Below are positions 2,100-46,366 of a stretch of DNA of 64,000 bases, piece after piece. The stretch is from positions 186,001-250,000 of the forward strand of contig WHVA01000090.1 of assembly GCA_015179125.1 (NCBI GenBank), written 5' to 3'. This DNA comes from Gautieria morchelliformis. Lineage: Eukaryota > Basidiomycota > Agaricomycetes > Gomphales > Gomphaceae. The translations under genes and the position numbers were made by a program. Below the pieces are notes generated by a model, which saw only the letters and a list, made by a program, of their open reading frames with translations, was not told where the DNA came from and searched no databases. Positions within the stretch are counted from its first letter, which is position 1. Every line of letters begins with the position of its first letter.

Positions 2100-2936
2100 C
2101 CGCCCCACCTCTACACCGCATCCAGATCTTCTGTCACATATCTTCCCCTTCGCCCTTGCGTGTCTGGCCCAGAGCCTGACTCCTTCCGTGACATCACCAT
2201 CCCCAGGCTCCCAGCCTGCGGGAGATTATCTGCTTTGCTGACCCATCATTGCACACCCGCGAGACCGACATCCATATAACATTAGCGGCCATTACCATCC
2301 ACGTCCCGTCACACCACATTCCCCACCATACGGACGTCTATGAGTGTAGCCAGCCACACCAGCAGTAGTTACTTCCATCGCGTGTCACCCGATCCCACGT
2401 CCGAGCCCATTCCGAATAATCACGGCGACTGACGGCAAGCCTGCGACTCAAATGTCCGCGAGAAGTCTCCCTGGCACCACTCCATGACCTCAACGTCCCA
2501 TCCTACGTGTCACTATCTAACAGCCCGGAGCACAAGTCAAAATCACAACACCCGTACCACGCGTGATGTTCGCCTGCAATAATATGTCCGAAATCATAGG
2601 GGAGTGTAAGCAACGACGCAGCACTAACTCTGCTTCGGAAGCGGGGCAAAATAATACTCTCATGTCTGAGCTTGGGGGACGAGATGAAAGAGTTTTGAGA
2701 GCAAAGCTTGTCTGTGCTCTCGAACCTTCCAGATCAACATCTCCTTCGACGCCAACGTCTACTCCCACGTTCCCCTTGCGCGTGCCAGGTATCATAGTAC
2801 GGGGGTCACAAGCATATTCACAGTCCATGGAGCCGTCGCCGCTGATGCTTGATTTTCTCCCTTTCCAGAGCCCTCGCCCTCGCCAGCCGAGTTCCCTGTA
2901 GGGAGAACAGCCTGGCCACTCTGCATACCCAGTCCA
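2100..2936 (+). repeat. Dispersed repeat, copy A (split by copia-1)
   Basis: Matches a second copy at 18840-19970 in the same orientation and order. Shared blocks include the ACATCCATAT block near 2270 (18955), the GATGTTCGCCTGCAATA block near 2563 (19744), and the GCTTCGGAAGC block near 2633 (19809) with AAAGAGTTTTGAGAGC downstream. Divergence is substantial, so the family is old. Copy A is interrupted at 2936 by the copia-1 element and copy B by a hAT-like element at 18993. Open frames inside are not conserved between copies, so I call no gene. Confidence 0.6.
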
Positions 2937-3148
2937 TGTTAGTAATCGGGACGATGATACGGCCGAGGCAGAGCCGGCACGCACTTAGCCGGAGGTTCGA
3001 GATCGCTCTCGACCCCGGGATGACGGCATCGGCACAGCATCAGCTCGAAGGATTAGTAATATAGGAACATCATAATTAGTATATAAGGGCAGACAATCTT
3101 GTATAGATCATAGAATAACAGTCTATTATTTTACTCCTTCGTTCCACA
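2937..3148 (+). repeat. copia-1 5' LTR
   Basis: Begins TGTTAGTAATCGG and ends TTCCACA. It matches 9320-9544 except for 13 bases missing near 3020 and small substitutions. It contains a TATATAAGGG box near 3080, a plausible promoter element. Confidence 0.93.
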
Positions 3149-3162
3149 GGTTATGGGCCCCG
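3149..3162 (+). promoter_or_regulatory. Primer-binding site of copia-1 (initiator tRNA-Met anticodon arm)
   Basis: GGTTATGGGCCCC starts at the first base after the LTR. It is complementary to the anticodon arm of eukaryotic initiator tRNA-Met rather than to a tRNA 3' end. This is the half-tRNA priming known from Drosophila copia. The same site follows the second copia (21131). Confidence 0.75.
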
Positions 3163-3237
3163 GCCATAACTAAACTACTACAGACCTAGCTTACTCCAAC
3201 TACGCTCTATACTCCAACAACTCAATACCGATCGACG

Positions 3238-27781: not shown

Positions 27782-29041
27782 CGCGTTTATTTCCCATACT
27801 CAGGAGCTCTGTTCCCCCATGTCCCACGCCACCTACGTGTTCGTCCCGATTGCCCTTGCCCTGTTCAGCGACCGGTCTTCACTGTTCGTGCCATCTACCA
27901 TAAGCCACACCATCAACAGAAACAATCAACGTCTTTGGGCTGACTTGGCAGTCATCGCTGAGCCCATCGCCCCCTCTGATCAACCCTCTTTCGATGGTGT
28001 CCCTACGATCGGATTGTCATGACTTGTGTGTTTCCTTCACCTTGTGATCCCCTTTCGCTACCCCTCCCCCGTGTTCGCCGGCTTCGCCCTCCACCTCGAC
28101 CTCTCCTCCTCTATGTCATCTCTGTTTGCCCTTCCTCGCATTTCTCTGAACAAACCATTCGCTGCTTGCATCATTTGCCAGCAGGCACACCATCAAATTA
28201 CGATCGACATCCCTACCCGGCGTGATGACTCGTCAGCAGCTCCATCAGCTTCTCAATCCAACCCCCTTTTGGTGTTCATATAGGAATGGTGCGTTTGCGG
28301 GGTGTCCTACCCGTAGGTCATGTGGGATCAACCCAGTAGATGAAGAACCCGTGCAGAGCAGTGTATATGCAGGCCCCAAGACATGATTTCATACATAGGT
28401 GCCTTCGCCACCTTCACTCTCCGTCGTTTCATGTTCTCCCTCTTCCCCCACTCTATTGTATGTTTATTTCATCTATGCTATATCACGACTGCGCACCCCT
28501 ATCCAACCCTGACTTGTGACGGCCTCTTTCCTATTCGCTCATACCGTACGAGCATTCGATATAAGTAGTTTGCATTCGCATGTATATTCCCTAGTTCAAT
28601 TATCATACGTTGTCTATCTTGTGCAAACTTGACCTCGCTGTGATCATCGTCTTGAGCCTTCCCTTGGAGATTTCTATCTCCAACCAGCAGAGGACTTAGT
28701 CATCACTGGTGAGTTCTCATACTCCATCTTCCTTACCTTAGCCTTCGAACTATATTCTGTGCTGTTGGCGAAGGGCTCCGAAGGAGCACCTTCGCCAGCG
28801 AAGGGACTGTCGAAACTTAGACAGCCCTTCCGTGGTACCTTGCACGTTACGTCGTCGAGTGCCACGGGCTATTTCGCTACGACTGTAGATAGGGCGAGCC
28901 CCGCTCAGGCAACCCTCTTACCTTGTGAACATTTATTGGTTCACCTATTCGCCGAACGGCATACTTATTTGCACAAGTTATTCGGGCATTCGCTGTGTTC
29001 ACTAATACACGATATTAACGTCTAAAAACCCAATCATGACA
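27774..29041 (+). repeat. Gypsy-type LTR (family L), copy 1, 1.27 kb
   Basis: TGTCATGACGCG...CCCAATCATGACA. Related copies on the other strand lie at 45337-46366 and 61966-63562. The shared core includes a leader-like stretch (GTGCAAACTTGACCTCGCTG near 28621) and CGAAGGGCTCCGAAGGAGC near 28770. Flanks ACAAT and AATAT do not match, so a clean target duplication is absent. It supplies the stop codon of the alpha-kinase gene. Confidence 0.75.
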
Positions 29042-29281
29042 AATATGCACCTAAAAGTATATTACCCGATAAACTGTGTAATGGCCCATTGAGACACGGT
29101 ATGTTATAATTTTATCAGCGGTGTATATTGCACTCACATCCAGCTGGGCCTTAGGATGGGATTAGCGTACCTTTTACCGTTCAGTACTTCTCTCTAGCAT
29201 TGTGAAAATTATTTAGAAAAAAAGAAAGAAAAAAAAAAAAAGCATTTATAATTGTAGTCCGAAGGTGCCTGTTACAATTAT
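29042..29281. other. AT-rich spacer
   Basis: Holds a poly-A tract with occasional G (29216-29242). No gene or repeat ends recognised. Confidence 0.35.

Positions 29282-36780: not shown

Positions 36781-36829
<49 letters not shown>
36781..36829 (+). repeat. (CT)n microsatellite
   Basis: About 24 CT units. On the other strand it creates a spurious Arg-Glu repeat frame. Confidence 0.95.
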
Positions 36830-36831
<2 letters not shown>

Positions 36832-37512
36832 CCTGCCACCATTATTTGCCACCGTTTTTCCTTCTTTGCCAGAAAGTGCGTGCCGAAGTGATGCCATGTA
36901 CTAAAATACTACAATATCAGATACGGCTGCCATGACGATCCATATGCACACTTACATCTTCATCCAGGACGATCTCTACTTCTACCCCACTCGCATCACC
37001 CTTTTTCTTCTTTACCTGAGCGCTCTTCACATCATCCTTGAGAGTGGCCCAGTCATCTTCCTTGGCAAGCTTCGAGAGATGCTTGTCGCGCACTCCTTTG
37101 AGGCGGTAAGCTAGCTGGGGCATTTTTTTCACATTTTTGTAGCACCCAATGGCTTTGAAAACACACTCCTCCACGTCATTGAAGTGCGCACTAGCTGGGA
37201 TTTTGACACATTCAATAAATCCTTCCGGTTCGGTACAATCCGGAACACGCAAGACAATGTCTAGATAAAGCATGAGCATATATATAATAAAAATATTAAA
37301 ATACATACGAGGCTCATCCTTTACCTGTTTGTGAACGACATCTACTGGCTCCTCAGATTCTGAGCCGTCCGGTAGCTCGTTGGACTCGGCCTCGGATACG
37401 GTTTCCGGTCGAAACTCTTCTTGATCTGAGGCCGGTTCCATCATGTCAGCGAATTGGACCTTTTTCGCTGCCTGACGCTTCGGCCGAGAAGTGCCAGTTT
37501 CATCAGCTGGCA

Positions 37513-38063
37513 CACCTGTAGTGCCCACTTAGTCATACCTTCTTAGCTAGGGTAACCGGCCGGGTTGCAGAGGCTAAGTAGGTATGTTTTGCAGAGAGGA
37601 CCAGTACTACGAATAATACTACGTATAATTCTTACTTAGCTGCAAAATGTGAATGTGGGTGAGCTATGGACACCTGTCCTACCCGTCGGAACCACATCCA
37701 GTGTCTCGAGCCACGGCTCAACTGTTCACGTGACCGTCTCCAGCGACTGCCACGTCGCATCAACCACTGTCGCCGTCGTCACACGCAGTGAGCTCAACCG
37801 GTGAATTTCCATAACTCCAAAACCTCCCGCTTTTTTTAATATGCCTCCTGCTTGACCCTCCCATATCAAACTCAGCTAAGTAAACATCTCAAAAGTATGT
37901 ATTTACATATCTACTTTCTCATGCCTTACTCACGGGGAACGACAGCTTCTCCTGGACATTGAGCCCCATACTCAACGGCCACACCCGCACACCTCATGTT
38001 CCCGCCCCCGCATTGTCCGATCCACCTCTTGGTCCCGGACAGGCGAACAAGCCCATACCTAAG
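37513..38063 (+). repeat. Left long terminal inverted repeat
   Basis: 551 bases. Matches 41571-42120 in reverse complement with few substitutions, for example CCGTCTCCAGCGACTGCC versus CCGTCTTCAGTGACCACC. Confidence 0.92.
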
Positions 38064-38214
38064 TTCTCAACTCTCGTATCGCGCATCAAGACAAGGCGTA
38101 TAAAGTCCCGAGCCCCAATCATGAATCCTTCCAAGCAGCGTCGAAAAGTCAAGAACATCGAAGACGGCGTACACGTTCTCGACGCTTCCAATAATAATAG
38201 ACGTGACGGCTGTA

Positions 38215-38705
38215 ATCATCTCAGCAGTTGGATATCGGCAACTGTCCACGTACCGAGAGTAGTTTGGCGAAGGCGTTGGGGTCCAGGATGCTCGCGCTTT
38301 GCAAGAACCACTGGTATGTTGGGGATCGGAGGATGGTGTGCGCGGTGAGCCTTCGTGGAATCAAAGTAGAAGTGCATGGTAGCCAAGGGACAGGCTTGTA
38401 GTTTCGACTTGGCCTCGACGGACGCATCAGCACGTTCCCATTCCTTCACCTGTTTAAAATCACCAGGTCGATCCATGACGAGAAGGTTTGGGAGAGAGAT
38501 TCCATTGGAAGCTACCTTCATCTCTGAAATAGAAGGGCGCCGTCATAACAGCTCCAGCAAGGGCCGATGCCGGCCTATGTTGGCGATGACCAAAGTGATG
38601 CTCAAATCCGTGTGGATTTTGAAGCGACACCGCACCAGCACCTGCGAACCCATTGACTAGTGCAGTCGAAGAGTATGACAATGGGTGTACAAAGGCAGCT
38701 GCCAA
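38215..38705 (-). pseudogene. Unidentified captured coding fragment
   Basis: Overlapping minus-strand frames read VHPLSYSSTALVNGFAGAGA, HHFGHRQHRPASALAGAVM, LLVMDRPGDFKQVKEWERAD and EAKSKLQA. Frame changes are needed, but the composition is protein-like. I do not recognise the family. It lies in the part of the transposon absent from the right inverted repeat, so it was probably captured. Confidence 0.35.
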
Positions 38706-40197
38706 TGATCAAGTTAAAAATGGAAACTTATTGAAGATTAGATGAAACGCACCGCCGCCTCGCTTGAGCTGCTCGTATGCAACGTCTCTGACCAGATCTA
38801 GCTACGTACCTTATCAGAGGGTCCGACGCTATTGACTCATCACGCGCCCTGTTTAGGCCTGTTCAGGTGGTGTCTCTGGGCTGTATATTCCTCGGCAGCC
38901 TTTTATACAGTGGACGGTCCACGCCAGATTACATATTCGCTGCATCGAGTCGCCCATTGCTCCACAGTGGTGTTCTGCACATGGTTCCAGATTGGAAAGT
39001 CACGACTTCAACTAACATCACAATGAATAAATTGAACCCATTCATGGAAACTTGACAGCACAGCCAGAGAAGGGGCTGACAACATGTCCTAGGTTTATTC
39101 TGAAGGTGTATGATGTGTTTTTGATAAGGTATGCACTAGTTCTGCGAACGGATCACATCAAAAAATTGCTTGTGCGCGTGTGTCGGCTAGCAAGGGTTCA
39201 AGCTTGCAACCAAGACAGGATTCGGCTTACACAGGTAACAACCTGCAATAGCCACGACGATATGCATTGGAGCTTGACGTTGAACAAATATCTGATTAAT
39301 GTTAGGGATGTTTAAGCCAAGGACTGCCGCTGGTCACAGGAAATATGAACAGCATTAGAAGCCAAGAGAAGCACGGGCAATTTTCGGTGGTGTTCCTCGA
39401 CAAGGTGAGCATGAGCACAGAGCCAGCGTCATTGATATAGATATATATGACCTATTATGAGCTATACAGACCTACCTAACATCTGTAAATGCAGTCCATT
39501 GTGATTCTTGATCTGATCGTTCTATAAAATCCATATCTCACTTGTTTTCACGCTGGTATTCTAAAGCGGAACATTGTTGACCGCATTGCAACTTCTCAAT
39601 GTTTTGGTTATAATGAAGCCAATTATGTGAGTCTAACCTGCCGGCATATATAGGAGTGTAAGGCCCACCATCAACCGTCTGCTTGTCAATGTTGATATCG
39701 CAATGGTGGTGATGTAAGTCATGTTCTACTTAGTCTTTGGGAGGAAAAATGACCCTTGTGCTCAGGTGTAACAGTGGTCCCCTTATAGATCTTATCCTTG
39801 CGTTCCTCAACCTATGCGACACAAGGATCTCAACCCAAGTCGCCTTAAGCCGCCATCTGATGCAGAAGCCGGTAAGTGCATACTCTATCTTGTCAAATTC
39901 CAATTTACATGATTTATACAGAATGACTGTATACAGGCCATAAAGCATAGCACAGGGGTAAGGTCATGCATATCAGTTGCTCGACAACTAGCTAACTTGT
40001 GAGTCTCCAAGCCAGATCATGATCGCTCAATAAGAGAGCTCCCCCAGCATGATCACAGGAAGAGTACTTTAACCAGCCTGACATATGCCTTCCTCGTCGC
40101 AAACAAGCTCATGCAGCTTGAACCTGTAATTTCTTTAATTCACCGACTGCTTTTCTATTTTTCACTCGTACTACCATAATAGCATTTGCATATGGAA
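38706..40197. other. Transposon interior, no gene recognised
   Basis: Short frames and intron-like signals only. Possibly more captured, decayed exons; nothing can be named. Confidence 0.3.
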
Positions 40198-41118
40198 CGC
40201 AAACTCTACCCTCACCCCCCATTAGGCCCAAGCATATGGCACGATGCAAATGGCGAAGTTGATCCAAGTGGTACAGCTTGGGTATCTTGAGTTAAAGAAA
40301 CCTGGAAGGGCTGCGTATACGTCATGGGCCAATACGCGACGATCAGCAGGACGAATACGTGTTCCGCAGCAAGGTCGAAGTTGAATCACGCACCTATGCA
40401 TATGCATCTGTGATTTTCCTTGTGGCTCTCACTGATCAAAACATCAAGGTATGTGCTTAGACTTCCTTCCTGACGGCCAAGTCACAGGGCGAGGTGGGGA
40501 TTTTGGTGGAAAGTTCTTGATAACGTGCGTCCTTAGAGGCTGCCAGCTAGTGTGTGCACATAATTGGCTCATTGTGTCCCAGTGGAGCCTACAGGGGAAC
40601 CTTTGTGGATCTCAGGAAGCAGTATGACGATGAAGACGAAGACGTTTACCTAGCCACTGGACACATGATCCCTTGGGGTAAATATGGACGATGGACTGTT
40701 CCCAACAAACCAACAGAAACTTTGGGTTATTGGCGTATTTGACACTACGAGGTGAGTGACTTCGTCCGCTAGCCTTTGCGAAACCTTATGTGGGACCCGT
40801 GAGGGTGCTCCCGTCTTCCCAATTTCTGTACCAATGACATTAGGAGGCAGAACAGTATACGTCAAAGCGGAACCTTACAGTGTCAACCCAAATTGGTTTA
40901 TAGAGCATGAGCGCGACAGAGAGGCGGGCACGCATATTAACAGAATGAATGGTATACGCAAGGCTCTGACATGCTCATCGCCTTTCACTGATTTTATCCA
41001 CTCATCAGGTTGGTTTACAAATCCCCCGCTTCCGCCTGAGCAAGTTCCACTCCCAGAGCCCGATATCGAGGAGGGTCTATCTATGTCTATGAAGTGTGAT
41101 TGTTGGGCTTGGTTTTGA
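40198..41118 (+). pseudogene. Unidentified exon-like pieces inside the Pack-type transposon
   Basis: Plus-strand reading near 40370-40445 gives FRSKVESRTYAYASVIFLVA, 40554-40742 gives DLRKQYDDEDEDVYLATGHM and WGKYGRWTVPNKP, and 40756-41118 gives TLGGRTVYVKAEPYSVNPNW. Intron-like joins lie between. No family recognised; they precede the helicase piece in the same orientation but need not be one gene. Confidence 0.3.
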
Positions 41119-41139
41119 TGAGTTCCTGGATGAACCTGC

Positions 41140-41540
41140 CCCCGTGGAGAGCCAAGTTGGAATTTCTTCAGGCTTTCAAGACCAACAGGGTGGTGGTATG
41201 TGTAGGGGAAATGAGGTGCGGAAAGACAACACAAGTACCGCAATACATTCTCGACGATTATCTCGCCACTCCACCGGCTCCCGATGCGCCCTCTCTTTCC
41301 CAATTGCAAATCATCGTTACCCAGCCTCGCAGAGTTGCTGCGCTTTCCATGGCCTCCCGTGTTTCAGCCGAGCGTGGAGATGACAGCTCCGTTGGTTACA
41401 CGATTCGAGGGGAAAGTAATGCATCTCGGCGCACGATGCTCCTTTTCTGCACCACAGGTGTTGTCCTCCGGAGGTTGACTGTTGGAAACGGCCTTGAAGG
41501 TGTCAGGGTGGTTGTGGTTGCTGAGGTCAACATGGGCCGG
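41140..41540 (+). pseudogene. DExH-box RNA helicase fragment (DHX29/DHX57-like), captured
   Basis: Reads LPPWRAKLEFLQAFKTNRVV, VCVGEMRCGKTTQVPQYILD (motif I, normally GETGCGKT), IIVTQPRRVAALSMASRV (motif Ia), SVGYTIRGE, LLFCTTGVVLRRL (motif Ib) and GVRVVVVAEVN. The last stands where motif II DEVH is expected, so both nucleotide-binding motifs are altered. DEAH/DExH helicases remodel RNA using ATP. Only the first RecA-domain half is present; beyond motif II the frame enters the inverted repeat. Its position inside the transposon and the altered motifs mark it as a captured dead fragment. Confidence 0.82.
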
Positions 41541-41570
41541 CGTCGGCCCTTGCTGGCACTGTTTCCCCAG

Positions 41571-42120
41571 CTTAGGTATGGGCTCGTGCGCCCGTCCGGT
41601 ACCAAGAGGTGGATCAAGAATGCGGGGGCGGGAACATGGGGTGTGCGGGTGTGGCTGTTGAGTATGGGGCTCAATGTTGGGGAGAAGCTGTCATTCCCCG
41701 TGAGTAAGGCATGAGAAAGTAGATATGTAAATACATACTTTTGAGATGTTTACTTAGCTGAGTTTGATATGGGAGGGTCAAGCAGGAGGCATATTAAAAA
41801 AAGCAGGAGGTTTTGGAGTTATGGAAATTCACCGGTTGAGCTCACTGTGTGCGACGACGGCGACAGTGGTTGATGCGACGTGGTGGTCACTGAAGACGGT
41901 CACGTGAACAGTTGAGCCGTGGCTCGAGACACTGGATGTGGTTCCGACGGGTAGGACAGGTGTCCATAGCTCACCCACATTCACATTTTGCAGCTAAGTA
42001 AGAATTATACGTAGTATTATTCGTAGTACTGGTCCTCTCTGCAAAACATACCTACTTAGCCTCTGCAACCCGGCCGGTTACCCTAGCTAAGAAGGTATGA
42101 CTAAGTGGGCACTACAGGTG
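41571..42120 (-). repeat. Right long terminal inverted repeat
   Basis: 550 bases, inverse of 37513-38063. Outer end GGGCACTACAGGTG followed by AGCTGGCA. Confidence 0.92.
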
Positions 42121-42262
42121 AGCTGGCAGATCATTTTGTCAGTTCTTGATGAAATTCCATTATTATAACATACTGACCAGGTAATGTTCTTTCCAATGAT
42201 TCATTGACCATATTATCTCTACCAGACTTAGAAGGCTTCCTTTTGTTCTTACCATTCCCCAT

Positions 42263-42726
42263 CGTTGCAGCGGCTACAGCAAGTCGAATCGGGTCGGATA
42301 ACGCCGACTCATTTTTACGTGTGAGTAACGTACTTCACGCTCGCTCGTTCCTTCTACTCTGACATTATATCTTAGCGCACCTGCGGGCACAGTGGAGGTA
42401 AGTTTTCCTTCTTTGAATCTACATTCATGATGCTGACTGGATCAGTGCTTTGTTGCATTGTGCTCTCTGGAGTGCTTGTCGCAGGCTTGTTTCTATCTTT
42501 TTTTCAAGTAAAATAGCAAGTCCTGTGCAAAATAATGGAAGGCCCCCTGCGCCAGTCAGAGCGTTTGGGCCAGCTTACGTCTATTGGCAATTCCCGGCCC
42601 AAAGCTAAGGTGCGCATTCTTTACGATGTGACACGCATTGCCAGCAATCATATTATAATCTTAGATTTCACCTATACCTGTTTGCCCGCATTATGATCAC
42701 CAAGATCATCATTCGCAAGGATACAA
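42263..42726. other. 5' flank of the disrupted gene
   Basis: Contains short intron-like signals but no gene that I can name. Confidence 0.3.
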
Positions 42727-43458
42727 TCATCCTGAAGAATTGTCTAATACATCATACGGTCTTCCATGCCGACCCCTTAATTCCCGCGACACCCGCCTGG
42801 GCGGTCGTTCCTCTGCGACCGCACCGGGCGCCGCCGCCTCTTCCTCCTCTCCTGCGCGGGGATGTCCCTCTTCTTCACGCTGCAGACCATGTGCAGCGCG
42901 CAGTTCGCGATCACCGGCTCGACGGCGGCGCATGCGAGCTCCGCGCTGGGGAGGACGGCATCGACGCAGCAGAGCGCGCGGCGTGCGGCCTGATGCTGAC
43001 GCGGAGGAGGCGCGCGCGGGGCCGACGGTGAGCGTGCTGAGGCGTGACGGGAGGCGCGCGGCGAGGGCGGGCCAGTGCGCGGGGGGCACGTTGACAAGGG
43101 CGAGGCAGGGCACGAGCGTGAGGATGCGGTGCACGGCGGCGAGGCATGTGGGGGGCCACGCGAATGTGTTGAAGGGTGCGGCGGAGGCGGCGTCATCCAG
43201 GGCGAGGGCGGGACAGCCCGGGGCGCCGATGGGCACTCTAACAAAAGGCGAGTTGTTTCTAAGGCACGCTGTTACGATCGATATACTGCGCGGTCCAGGC
43301 CCACTCGGGGAATATTTGTGCATTTGATCCACGAGTTTACCCGGGCCGCGAGGATTGAAGACCTCCGAGCGAGCCAGTCGAGCGGTCGTAGTACGAGTAC
43401 GAGTACTGCCTAGAGTAAGGAGTATTATATATGTGACATCTGGTAGCGCGGAGCGCAT
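42727..43458 (-). CDS. GC-rich gene fragment, F-box/LRR-like hypothetical protein
   Basis: A 243-codon minus-strand frame, much more GC-rich than its surroundings. The protein-like part (about 43290-42990) reads VTACLRNNSPFVRVP, APFNTFAWPPTCLAAVHRIL, LVPCLALVNVPPAHWPALA and RLPSRLSTLTVGPARA, a leucine-spaced pattern resembling the LRR-like C-terminal part of basidiomycete F-box proteins. The remainder becomes arginine/alanine-rich and probably frameshifted. No F-box in view. Function unknown; composition suggests a recently inserted piece of a GC-rich host gene. Confidence 0.4.
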   Translation of the reverse strand: MRSALPDVTYIILLTLGSTRTRTTTARLARSEVFNPRGPGKLVDQMHKYSPSGPGPRSISIVTACLRNNSPFVRVPIGAPGCPALALDDAASAAPFNTFAWPPTCLAAVHRILTLVPCLALVNVPPAHWPALAARLPSRLSTLTVGPARASSASASGRTPRALLRRCRPPQRGARMRRRRAGDRELRAAHGLQREEEGHPRAGEEEEAAAPGAVAEERPPRRVSRELRGRHGRPYDVLDNSSG

Positions 43459-43920: not shown

Positions 43921-45336
43921 AACATGAAGGTTTCTTCTTCACCAAGTTTCATGATTAGCTCGAAGGCGGCTGCGCTGATCAGGGCTATATGCGGCGTTAC
44001 CCTCCTCGTCGGAGGTGGATCAGGAGGTGAAGAATGGAATGGGAGGTGGTCATCGATCAGTAATTCTGTACATGGTGTACAGGAACCAAAATGACTCGGA
44101 GTAGGCTCTGTTTTTGGTCGAATAGGTTCGGTTTCTATTATGGGTTCTTTCGTGGCTGAAAATGGATGAATGAGATCATTAGGAAGTGATATAGAGGACT
44201 CAGAGGAGTGATTCTCGATTGGCTTGGTTGAGAGAAGTAAGGGTTCGCCATCCACGTCGAACGTCTGTTCGTAACCAGAAAGATTCGGAATAGGAGCGGG
44301 CGAAGAAGCGACGTCCAGTGGAAGGACCGGGACGCAGGAGAGTGGTCCAATCGCCGTGTTCGGGATATAACCCAAGGATGGCGGGGACGGATGCGAACCA
44401 GGAACTGGCGGTGGCGATGTCATCGACACAGTGTGGAGTTCGGGGATACTGTCGAAGATAGCCGGCGGGGAAATCATCGTACAGGCCATAGCGACCGTCA
44501 TACGTGGGAGCATGAAGCCGGTGCCAGAAGGAAAGGTAATTGAGAGGGAGCCCCAATCGATCGTTGGTTTCGTAGAGCGAAGCCACGGAAGCCCAAGAAC
44601 GATTGCGGCTGAAGGGTGTAACTTTGTGACAAGTAGCGAAACGTCCTGCAAAGAAGAGTCACTGAAGTGAGACTAGTATCTAGATATTCATGAATGAAAC
44701 CAGCAGTGGCTGGCTTCCCGTCGAAAAGGGAGAGAGCCATCAGCGAACGGAGTGATGTACATACGAAACCAGGACGAGAGGAAAAGGAGCTATCAATGAA
44801 ATTGGAAGTGGCACCAGAGTCAATAAGAGTAGGGATCGAGTTAGAGAGACCGGGAAGGTGTACATGGATGATGAAGGATGAATTGGAATGGGAGCTAATA
44901 GAGGCGAATAAACACGCTGGTGGTACAGAGTCAATCGGGCTGGTATTCAGAGGCGTAGGATGTTTATTGGCAAGAGTTGAGGAGAATGAGTCTAGTAGGA
45001 GAGATGATCCAGGTCCGCCAAGTAGGGCAGAAAGCTGTGTGAAGGATTGGTATGGGGAAGAGCGACCCATGGAGGGGTAAGGCTGTCCCGCGAATAAACG
45101 AGGCTCAGGCCCGCCAGGCGAGATGAGAATCTGTAGAGAGGAGTGTTGGAAGAGAGGTTGTCCCATGAAGGGGAATAAGGAAGGCCTGCCAAGTGGGGCA
45201 GGAGTCTAGGGAACGTTCGGTGTGGGGGGAGGCGACCTTCAAAACGGTGAGGCTGTCCCGCGAATAGGTGTGGCATGAAAAAAATGGTGAATGGATAGAA
45301 TGAATGCTTTGACTGTAGCTGTTAGTTCAATTATAC
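43921..45336 (-). pseudogene. Ty3/gypsy gag end and protease, truncated
   Basis: Leftwards from the LTR at 45337: a leader, Gag-like sequence, then the retropepsin motif PTLIDSGATSNFIDSSF (about 44830-44780), FDGKPATAGFIHEYLDT, a frame change near 44640, LVTKLHPSAAIVLGLPWLRS and a proline-rich linker to ITLIS-like HIALISAAAFELIMKLGEEE (43990-43925). This is the protease and linker upstream of reverse transcriptase in fungal gypsy elements. Reverse transcriptase, integrase and the 3' LTR are absent; the sequence is cut by family K at 43920. The catalytic D-S-G is intact. Confidence 0.8.
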
Positions 45337-46366
45337 TGTCAAGATTGGTTTTCAAGCGTTAATATCGTGTATTAGTGAACACAGCGAATGCCCGAATAAC
45401 TTGTGCGAATAAGTATGCCGTTCGGCGAATAAGTGAACCGATGAATGTTCACGAAACAAGAGGGTTGCCCAAACGGGGCTCACCCTATCTACAGTCGTAG
45501 CGAAATAGCTCGCAGCACTTGACGATGTAACATGCAAGATATTGCGGAAGGGCTGTCTAAGTTTCAACGTCCCTTCGCTGGTGAAGGTGCTCCTTCAGAG
45601 CCCTTTGCCAACAGCACAGAAAGTAGTCCGAAGGCTAAGGTAACGAAGATGAAGTATGAGAACTCACCAGTGATGCCTAAGTCCTTGGCTGGTTGAAGAT
45701 AGAAATCTTCAAGGGGAGGCTCGAGACTATGATCACAGCGAGGTCAAGTTTGCACAAGATGGACAATGTATGATAATTGAACTGGGGAATATACATGCGA
45801 ATGTAAACTACTTATATCGAATGCTCGTAAGGTATCAGCGAATAGGAAAGAGGCCGTCACAAGTCAGGGTTGGATAGGGGTGCGTGGTCATGATACTAGG
45901 TAGATGGAATAAACATACAATAGAGTGAGGGGAGAATGAGAACATGAAACGACGGAGAATAAAGGGAGCGAAGGCATTTATGGACAAAACCATGTCTTGG
46001 GACCCGCATACATGCTACCCTGCACGGACTCTTCGTTTACTGGGTTGATCCCGCACGACCTATGGAAGAGACGTCCTGCGATCACACCTTAGCCATACGA
46101 ACACCCAATGGGGTTGGATTAAGAAGATGATGGGGTTTATGATGAGCCATCATGCCGGGTGAATGGTATCAATCATATTCGATGGCGTGCCTGCTGACGA
46201 AATGCGCGAACAGTGAATAGCGGTTCGGAGAATGGGGCGAACAGCGGGTAGAGTGGACGTAGAGGGGAAGTGGTCGGTAGGTGCAGCGAACTCTGGCGAA
46301 GATGCTAGGGAGTGACGAGGGGGAACGTAGAGGTAGCGCGGTAGGAGAAATAAACCGGTCGTGACA
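45337..46366 (-). repeat. Gypsy LTR (family L), copy 2
   Basis: On the minus strand TGTCACGACCGG...CCAATCTTGACA. It is the 5' LTR of the gypsy remnant at 43921-45336 by position and orientation. It interrupts the hAT transposase, whose reading DMVVRC runs into the LTR at 46367. Confidence 0.8.

Follow-up and report, generated by a model that had tools for sequence, protein, structure and literature searches.

A Pack-type element and its target site

The window analysed here is a 64,000-nucleotide stretch of the basidiomycete Gautieria morchelliformis (contig WHVA01000090.1, positions 186,001 to 250,000), and its positions 37513-42120 very probably represent a Pack-type, non-autonomous, gene-capturing element of the KDZ DNA transposon family. 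This complete terminal inverted repeat (TIR) element of 4,608 base pairs (bp) corresponds to C1004:223513-228120, where C-numbers denote contigs of the same genome (122 megabases, 1,113 contigs), L-numbers fetched stretches and P-numbers proteins. The two inverted ends (37513-38063 and 41571-42120; 551 and 550 bp) align with 96.5% identity and one gap letter, and the alignment holds no difference over the outermost 227 bp. Each terminal inverted repeat consists of approximately 495 bp of transposon end and approximately 56 bp of a captured helicase gene (the L051 match at 38008-38063). An exact 8-bp duplication, AGCTGGCA, flanks the element at 37505-37512 and 42121-42128. No transposase domain was detected in the three window frames tested against Pfam, and neither the KDZ and MULE matches nor any of the listed hAT matches fall on C1004:223513-228120.

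The host site of the element lies inside another repeat (window 36814-37512 and 42121-42900), and the unoccupied sites described here are paralogous copies of that repeat in the same genome, not sites of related strains. Eight other places match both flanks nearly full-length with 88-99% identity (C1, C425, C271, C164, C400, C316, C604 and C47), and the left- and right-flank matches overlap by 8 bases in the repeat copies C1, C164 and C400. Comparison of six fetched sites with the joined flanks carrying one AGCTGGCA gave gapless alignments with 115-117 of 120 positions identical; the 8 bp are exact in C1, C164 and C400 and changed at one base in C425, C271 and C316. A preliminary description of the window, made from the sequence alone, had considered that the two TIRs might be a local inversion lacking a target duplication. 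Because paralogous unoccupied sites exist, six of which carry a single 8-bp site, the TIR pair is not a local inversion. The boundaries, near-identical inverted ends, exact 8-base duplication and missing transposase given in that description were all reproduced by our analysis. Its 550-base TIR is accurate as the length of the inverted ends; as a measure of transposon end it is too long by the captured helicase portion.

The 3,507-bp interior served as query in a DNA search for parents of the cargo, and the sources were then mapped onto the window. The interior is a DNA-level mosaic whose blocks lead to different source loci. It is not colinear with any single chromosomal locus, a point that the preliminary description had wanted checked. 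The features of the element are as follows.

37505-37512, no strand: left target-site duplication AGCTGGCA, present as a single copy in unoccupied sites
37513-38007, plus strand: left TIR, transposon-derived part; 37697-37799 and 37883-37974 also match the start of the C892 KDZ gene region
38008-38063, plus strand: start of DExH-helicase fragment, inside the left TIR; L051:2501-2556, 94.6%
38064-38546, no strand: captured segment of about 484 bp; source sequence at C215/C672/C995, where it continues beyond the segment; 437 bp also in C654
38547-38630, plus strand: helicase fragment; L051:2564-2647, 90.5%; 38547-38582 is inverted-repeated at 41528-41563
38632-38779, minus strand: mitochondrial-carrier gene fragment, 148 bp; C870 = L056:792-940, 93.3%
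38785-38887, no strand: 103-bp segment, donor not assigned to a gene; related to C193/C581/C482, 83-85%
38898-39386, no strand: 489-bp segment; multicopy relative in inverted pairs (C156, C184, C448)
39289-39567, no strand: segment common to C582, C243 and C415, 93-94%; the final 77 bp match the upstream portion of the Argonaute locus, L052:1039-1120, 89%
39573-39999, plus strand: Argonaute gene fragment in three blocks; L052:1968-2044, 2217-2433 and 2860-3007; 97, 94 and 84%
40436-41067, plus strand: orphan-gene exons; P0001 50% and P0002 92% over parts; 40581-41067 by tblastn-type matches, earlier part by eye from P0002
41125-41527, plus strand: DExH-helicase fragment; C407 = L051:2681-3083, 92.8% (403 bp)
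41528-41625, minus strand: helicase fragment inside the right TIR; L051:2599-2501, 89.9%
41626-42120, minus strand: right TIR, transposon-derived part
42121-42128, no strand: right target-site duplication AGCTGGCA, exact match to the left copy

Three of the source loci carry recognizable protein domains. The helicase parent (C407, L051) has a long exon with a DEAD domain, and its PDB matches include DExH RNA helicases, DHX29 among them. The Argonaute parent (C449, L052), from the RNA-silencing machinery, displays ArgoN just below and ArgoL2 above the cut-off, and the window fragment carries deletions relative to it. The carrier parent (C870, L056) contains a Mito_carr domain. The single frame tested from the segment at 38064-38546 showed no Pfam domain; the relatives of this segment at C215, C672 and C995 are 99-100% alike beyond the 484-bp piece, which indicates a repeated source sequence. 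The segment at 38898-39386 is likely, from its paired relatives, to be the end of another TIR transposon family. For 40030-41124, no DNA match was found outside the duplicate contigs C1054 and C480 (best 40 of 70 candidates scored). A peptide assembled by eye out of the exons at 40436-41067 gave two protein matches among 29 candidates: P0001, with 50% identity over 48% of the query, and P0002, with 92% over 28% and located on a 2,946-bp metagenome contig. When P0001 was compared with the genome (6 of 6 candidates), it matched only the element and its duplicate contigs, and no parent for 40436-41067 was found. TET/JBP cargo gave no match, but this negative is uninformative, since the control genomes were likewise without a match. 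A parent of the helicase piece, which the preliminary description had expected to be DHX29/DHX57-like, was located at C407 (93% over 403 bp), and the other exon-like fragments it had noticed include Argonaute, mitochondrial-carrier and orphan-gene pieces, the last without a parent in the genome.

Changed codons in the helicase copies were divided into synonymous and non-synonymous. The ratios are 12:14 for the window piece, 8:34 plus two stops for C161, and 7:9, 7:10 and 5:16 for three further pieces. These counts give no sign of strong constraint that would point to a cargo protein function in the helicase copies.

Same-end copies and the mobilizing enzyme

The left end of the element has at least 42 matches in the genome (best 40 of 64 candidates scored). 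A 27-bp terminus pattern with up to three mismatches identified 44 ends genome-wide, while its reversed control identified none. These ends include 28 that form 14 pairs (the window element, the duplicate contig C1054 and 12 further elements) and 16 without a partner in the list. C1054 was rejected as an independent copy, as its insertion and flanks are identical to those of the window (99.97% over 6.2 kilobases (kb)) and it is a duplicate contig, either an allele or an assembly duplicate; C480 was also rejected as the same site or a partial contig. From the unpaired ends, the loci C139b, C243, C330, C611 and C892b were fetched, as was C302, and 10 others were left out; C161 and C415 were included on the basis of left-end matches. 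The resulting comparison set, from which C302 was excluded, contains 20 loci, namely 13 independent complete elements (2.8 to 17.1 kb) and seven open-ended loci.

The 8-bp duplication is exact in 12 of the 13 independent complete copies and agrees at 7 of 8 positions in the remaining one. When left and right flanks were swapped between the 13 copies, no more than 5 of 8 positions ever matched (156 pairings). Most complete copies have TIRs of 341-783 bp, and the ends read CACCTGTAGTG. The same ends were absent from the prokaryote genome contigs searched, as expected for a eukaryotic element. The copies form a graded series from those with transposase and captures, through those with captures only, to those consisting mostly of ends. 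Nested sequence was also observed: Pfam matches place a Ty1/copia retroelement within the family member at C196 (L035). A high-copy repeat of approximately 1.03 kb occurs at C243 (L037, approximately 1808-2842), at window 28008-29047 and 45336-46366 and in at least 36 other genomic places (best 40 of 3,989 candidates scored).

Genome-wide, 91 exon-level matches to the KDZ domain were obtained, most of which lie outside the examined elements of this TIR family. Two of the 20 examined loci contain it, at C892:437504-438097 (a 10.8-kb element) and C582:101547-102173 (a 17.1-kb element). Single-frame analysis confirmed the domain in both, with expectation values (E) of 1.2e-42 for C582 (L044) and 2.8e-41 for C892 (L047), and a CxC1 domain stands next to KDZ in both copies above the cut-off (2.2e-6 and 1.7e-6). 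The greater length of C582 is due to a 7.05-kb insertion in its left TIR (L043:1151-8199), which has a short TIR duplication on its flanks. The hAT dimerization domain has 152 matches in the genome, none of those listed being inside the 20 examined loci, and none of the 42 MULE matches in the genome falls inside them either, so that a MULE enzyme is not supported as the mobilizer. In view of KDZ and CxC1 in the two largest same-end copies, the lack of listed hAT matches and of MULE matches in the 20 examined loci and the likeness to the described element KDZ1, the mobilizing enzyme of this TIR family is most likely a KDZ transposase. The 8-bp duplications and TIRs speak against the Kyakuja lineage as described in the excerpted text of PMC12730594, on a comparison of features.

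The KDZ genes of C892 and C582 could instead be nested passengers of a TIR family whose own transposase is some other enzyme. Nested insertions are common in the family, as in C196 and C582, and the majority of the KDZ matches in the genome are located elsewhere. Against such passengers, the KDZ gene of both copies sits in a common block of 3.9 kb (3,745 identities, 123 mismatches and 12 gap letters), further colinear blocks are shared toward the right end, and TIR sequence reappears where the KDZ gene region begins. The family also agrees with KDZ1 of Cryptococcus neoformans, as far as that element is described in the excerpted PMC12810828, in the length of the duplications and of the element and in the CxC1-KDZ make-up. 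We therefore regard nested passengers as very unlikely.

The preliminary description had suggested mobilization by a hAT-like enzyme, which would make the 8-bp duplications and move the element in trans. Duplications of 8 bp are usual for hAT elements (PMC12730594, in excerpt) and hAT domains are common in this genome, as the 152 matches attest. One of them, C302:67122-67301, sits approximately 3 kb from an unpaired same-end terminus, on its inner side, and weighs against assignment to KDZ. Analysis of that locus (L069) indicates that the family-matching part, which is colinear with C892 1-2202, extends from the terminus as far as L069:3641, where it breaks off approximately 840 bp short of the hAT domain (L069:2623-2802). 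The domain is flanked by 27-bp inverted repeats of its own (L069:373-399 and 3158-3183), forming a unit of approximately 2.8 kb (L069:373-3183). It most likely belongs to a hAT element in its own right, lying next to or within a truncated same-end copy. Another near hAT match lies approximately 1.5 kb outside C582. With these placements, with none of the listed hAT matches inside the 20 examined loci and with KDZ in the two largest same-end copies, a hAT-driven Pack element is highly improbable, and the hAT suggestion found no support.

Several further observations count against the KDZ assignment. Indels of 1, 2 and 8 bp separate C892 from C582 within their shared block, and either transposase may not be intact; the left TIR of the transposase-bearing C582 is interrupted by its insertion; and 10 of the 16 unpaired same-end termini lie outside the examined set. 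Mobilization by the KDZ transposase is also read from sequence. The gene-capturing TIR family proposed earlier was recovered in its 44 ends and 13 independent complete copies. The autonomous relative sought alongside it has candidates in C892 and C582, which carry a KDZ transposase gene with the intactness just qualified.

Capture history and proposed mechanism

Each of the 20 loci was compared with the three domain-bearing parents, with matches accepted to an E of 1e-4. Helicase pieces were found in 13 of the 20 (C161, C196, C231, C243, C359, C415, C437, C482, C582, C611, C654, C892 and the window), although the piece is only approximately 85-115 bp in C196, C231, C359, C437, C482, C611 and C892. 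Carrier pieces occur in six (window, C654, C243, C415, C582 and C892), and Argonaute pieces in these same six plus C545, the latter with 33 bp only. The transposase-bearing C892 and C582 hold helicase, Argonaute and carrier pieces, and the capture is therefore most likely older than the window element. Breakpoints are shared as well. Helicase position 2501 is common to C161, C654 and the window (2503 in C243), and 3799 to C231, C243, C415 and C892; Argonaute position 1039 is common to C243, C415, C654 and the window (1041 in C582); and carrier position 1740 is common to C243, C415, C582 and C892. Parent sequence beyond the captured spans had no match in the fetched stretches. These results suggest that each gene was most likely captured once into an ancestor, before the window element arose, and was later trimmed differently in its descendants. 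Additional donors may have contributed to C892, whose pieces have possible sources at C781:56950-57131 and C1015:245287-246124 (72-94%).

The mosaic might also be explained as the leftovers of successive nested insertions and deletions after landing, with no capture by the element. The interior pieces 38064-38546 and 38898-39386 do derive from repeats, and rearrangement is evident. In contrast, the helicase and Argonaute breakpoints are identical in copies located at different sites with different duplications, which indicates that the pieces travelled with the element. An origin of the mosaic after landing is accordingly extremely improbable.

The C582 helicase copy spans a putative exon-intron boundary of the parent near L051:3083 without a net gap, and therefore DNA was captured, not spliced RNA. 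Substitutions from parent to copy were pooled over the matches of the three parents (E up to 1e-8), giving 640 differences in 7,904 sites. At cytosine-guanine dinucleotides (CpG), C>T changes numbered 142 of 540 and G>A changes 99 of 543. Outside CpG, the corresponding counts were 43 of 1569 and 65 of 1404; T>C was seen at 67 of 1943 sites and A>G at 51 of 1905. That CpG sites have been lost in excess on the captured side is consistent with a host-to-transposon direction and with methylated copies.

Three points weaken this capture history. In the window and C654 the carrier piece corresponds to L056:792-940 and has no overlap with the pieces of C892, C582, C243 and C415 (L056:1333-1740); one shared carrier capture would still be the simplest reading, though less firm than for the other genes. 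The substitution counts pool non-independent copies and give the sign of a direction, not a rate. In a control comparison, 29 window tiles of 2 kb were run against the 20 loci with the one overlapping the element left out, and 9 of the 28 element-free tiles matched the open-ended C139b, C330 and C243, one of them also C359 (72%). No control tile matched the window element, C654, C582 or C892. Since repeat-rich host DNA also produces matches, the argument rests on the breakpoints, the domain-bearing parents and the duplications.

As a mechanism, we propose that a KDZ transposase supplied in trans would bind the TIRs, excise the element and reinsert it with an 8-bp stagger. Host fragments may have entered longer ancestral elements through DNA repair (gap repair) or template switching into host loci. 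The descendants would then have lost different pieces, undergone rearrangement and been amplified in trans. In the right arm of the window element, helicase sequence is locally inverted relative to C654 and to the parent, and such an inversion is compatible with repair between inverted ends.

In C892 and C582, the Argonaute fragment is antisense to the presumed transposase gene and starts 118 bp beyond its last long frame. That frame, which has no Pfam match, is presumed to mark the end of the gene. The C582 fragment measures 887 bp and extends 325 bp upstream of the putative start codon of the parent. One idea is that the captured piece has been retained as an anti-silencing decoy carried by the transposon. 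Read-through or convergent transcription could yield double-stranded RNA or small RNAs that target the Argonaute of the host, thereby loosening control of the transposon family. Loss of RNA interference can release transposons in C. neoformans, according to the excerpted PMC12810828. We consider retention as a decoy very unlikely; the position of the fragment adjoining the transposase makes the question testable.

Comparison with known gene-capturing elements

Transduplication by hAT elements, animal Pack-TIRs, helitron-carried genes and the uptake of TET/JBP by KDZ elements are already known. Reports of KDZ elements collecting several host-gene fragments were not encountered, and for KDZ host-gene capture beyond TET/JBP none was found in the open-licence PMC literature, which is a weak absence. 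The sources compared below are cited from excerpts.

The closest counterpart is KDZ1 of C. neoformans, an element of approximately 11 kb with 241-bp TIRs, 8-bp duplications, CxC1 and KDZ (PMC12810828). The family described here resembles it in KDZ and CxC1, in long TIRs and 8-bp duplications and in size (10.8 kb for C892). It differs in its longer TIRs (341-783 bp against 241 bp) and in its cargo, host-gene capture not being mentioned in the excerpted text on KDZ1. KDZ elements include the Zisupton, Dileera and Kyakuja lineages, some of which have picked up a TET/JBP gene; Zisupton and the Dileera family Zisupton-1_PGr make 8-bp duplications (PMC12730594). Our family shares the KDZ transposase with these lineages, whereas its cargo consists of several host-gene fragments and not a TET/JBP gene. 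Two Kyakuja families are described with 7-bp duplications and no TIRs, in contrast to the 8-bp duplications and TIRs of the window family (PMC12730594).

Gene capture itself follows patterns seen in other superfamilies. Animal Pack-TIRs are mostly hAT and TcMariner elements (323 of 370; PMC8277862), and Pack-MULEs are the plant model. Like the element in the window, animal Pack-TIRs hold host sequence not derived from transposable elements, their parents are identifiable, and gap filling or template switching has been proposed (PMC8277862); the word Zisupton is absent from the text of that report. In the ascomycete Pyrenophora tritici-repentis, hAT elements have transduplicated histone H3 (PMC3538342). 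There too, a fungal TIR transposon amplifies a host-like gene and exists in long transposase-bearing and short non-autonomous forms, but the enzyme is a hAT transposase and the cargo one histone H3-like gene, as opposed to KDZ and fragments of several genes here. The helitrons of Pleurotus ostreatus are likewise class II elements with captured genes in a basidiomycete and differ as rolling-circle elements (PMC4289320).

The graded copy series, the known parents and the unoccupied sites make the order of capture, deletion and amplification directly readable in this family. Published descriptions of cut-and-paste gene capture concern plant MULEs, animal hAT and TcMariner elements (PMC8277862) and the hAT elements of an ascomycete (PMC3538342). 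A KDZ family that collects pieces from three or more identifiable host genes would extend such capture to another superfamily.

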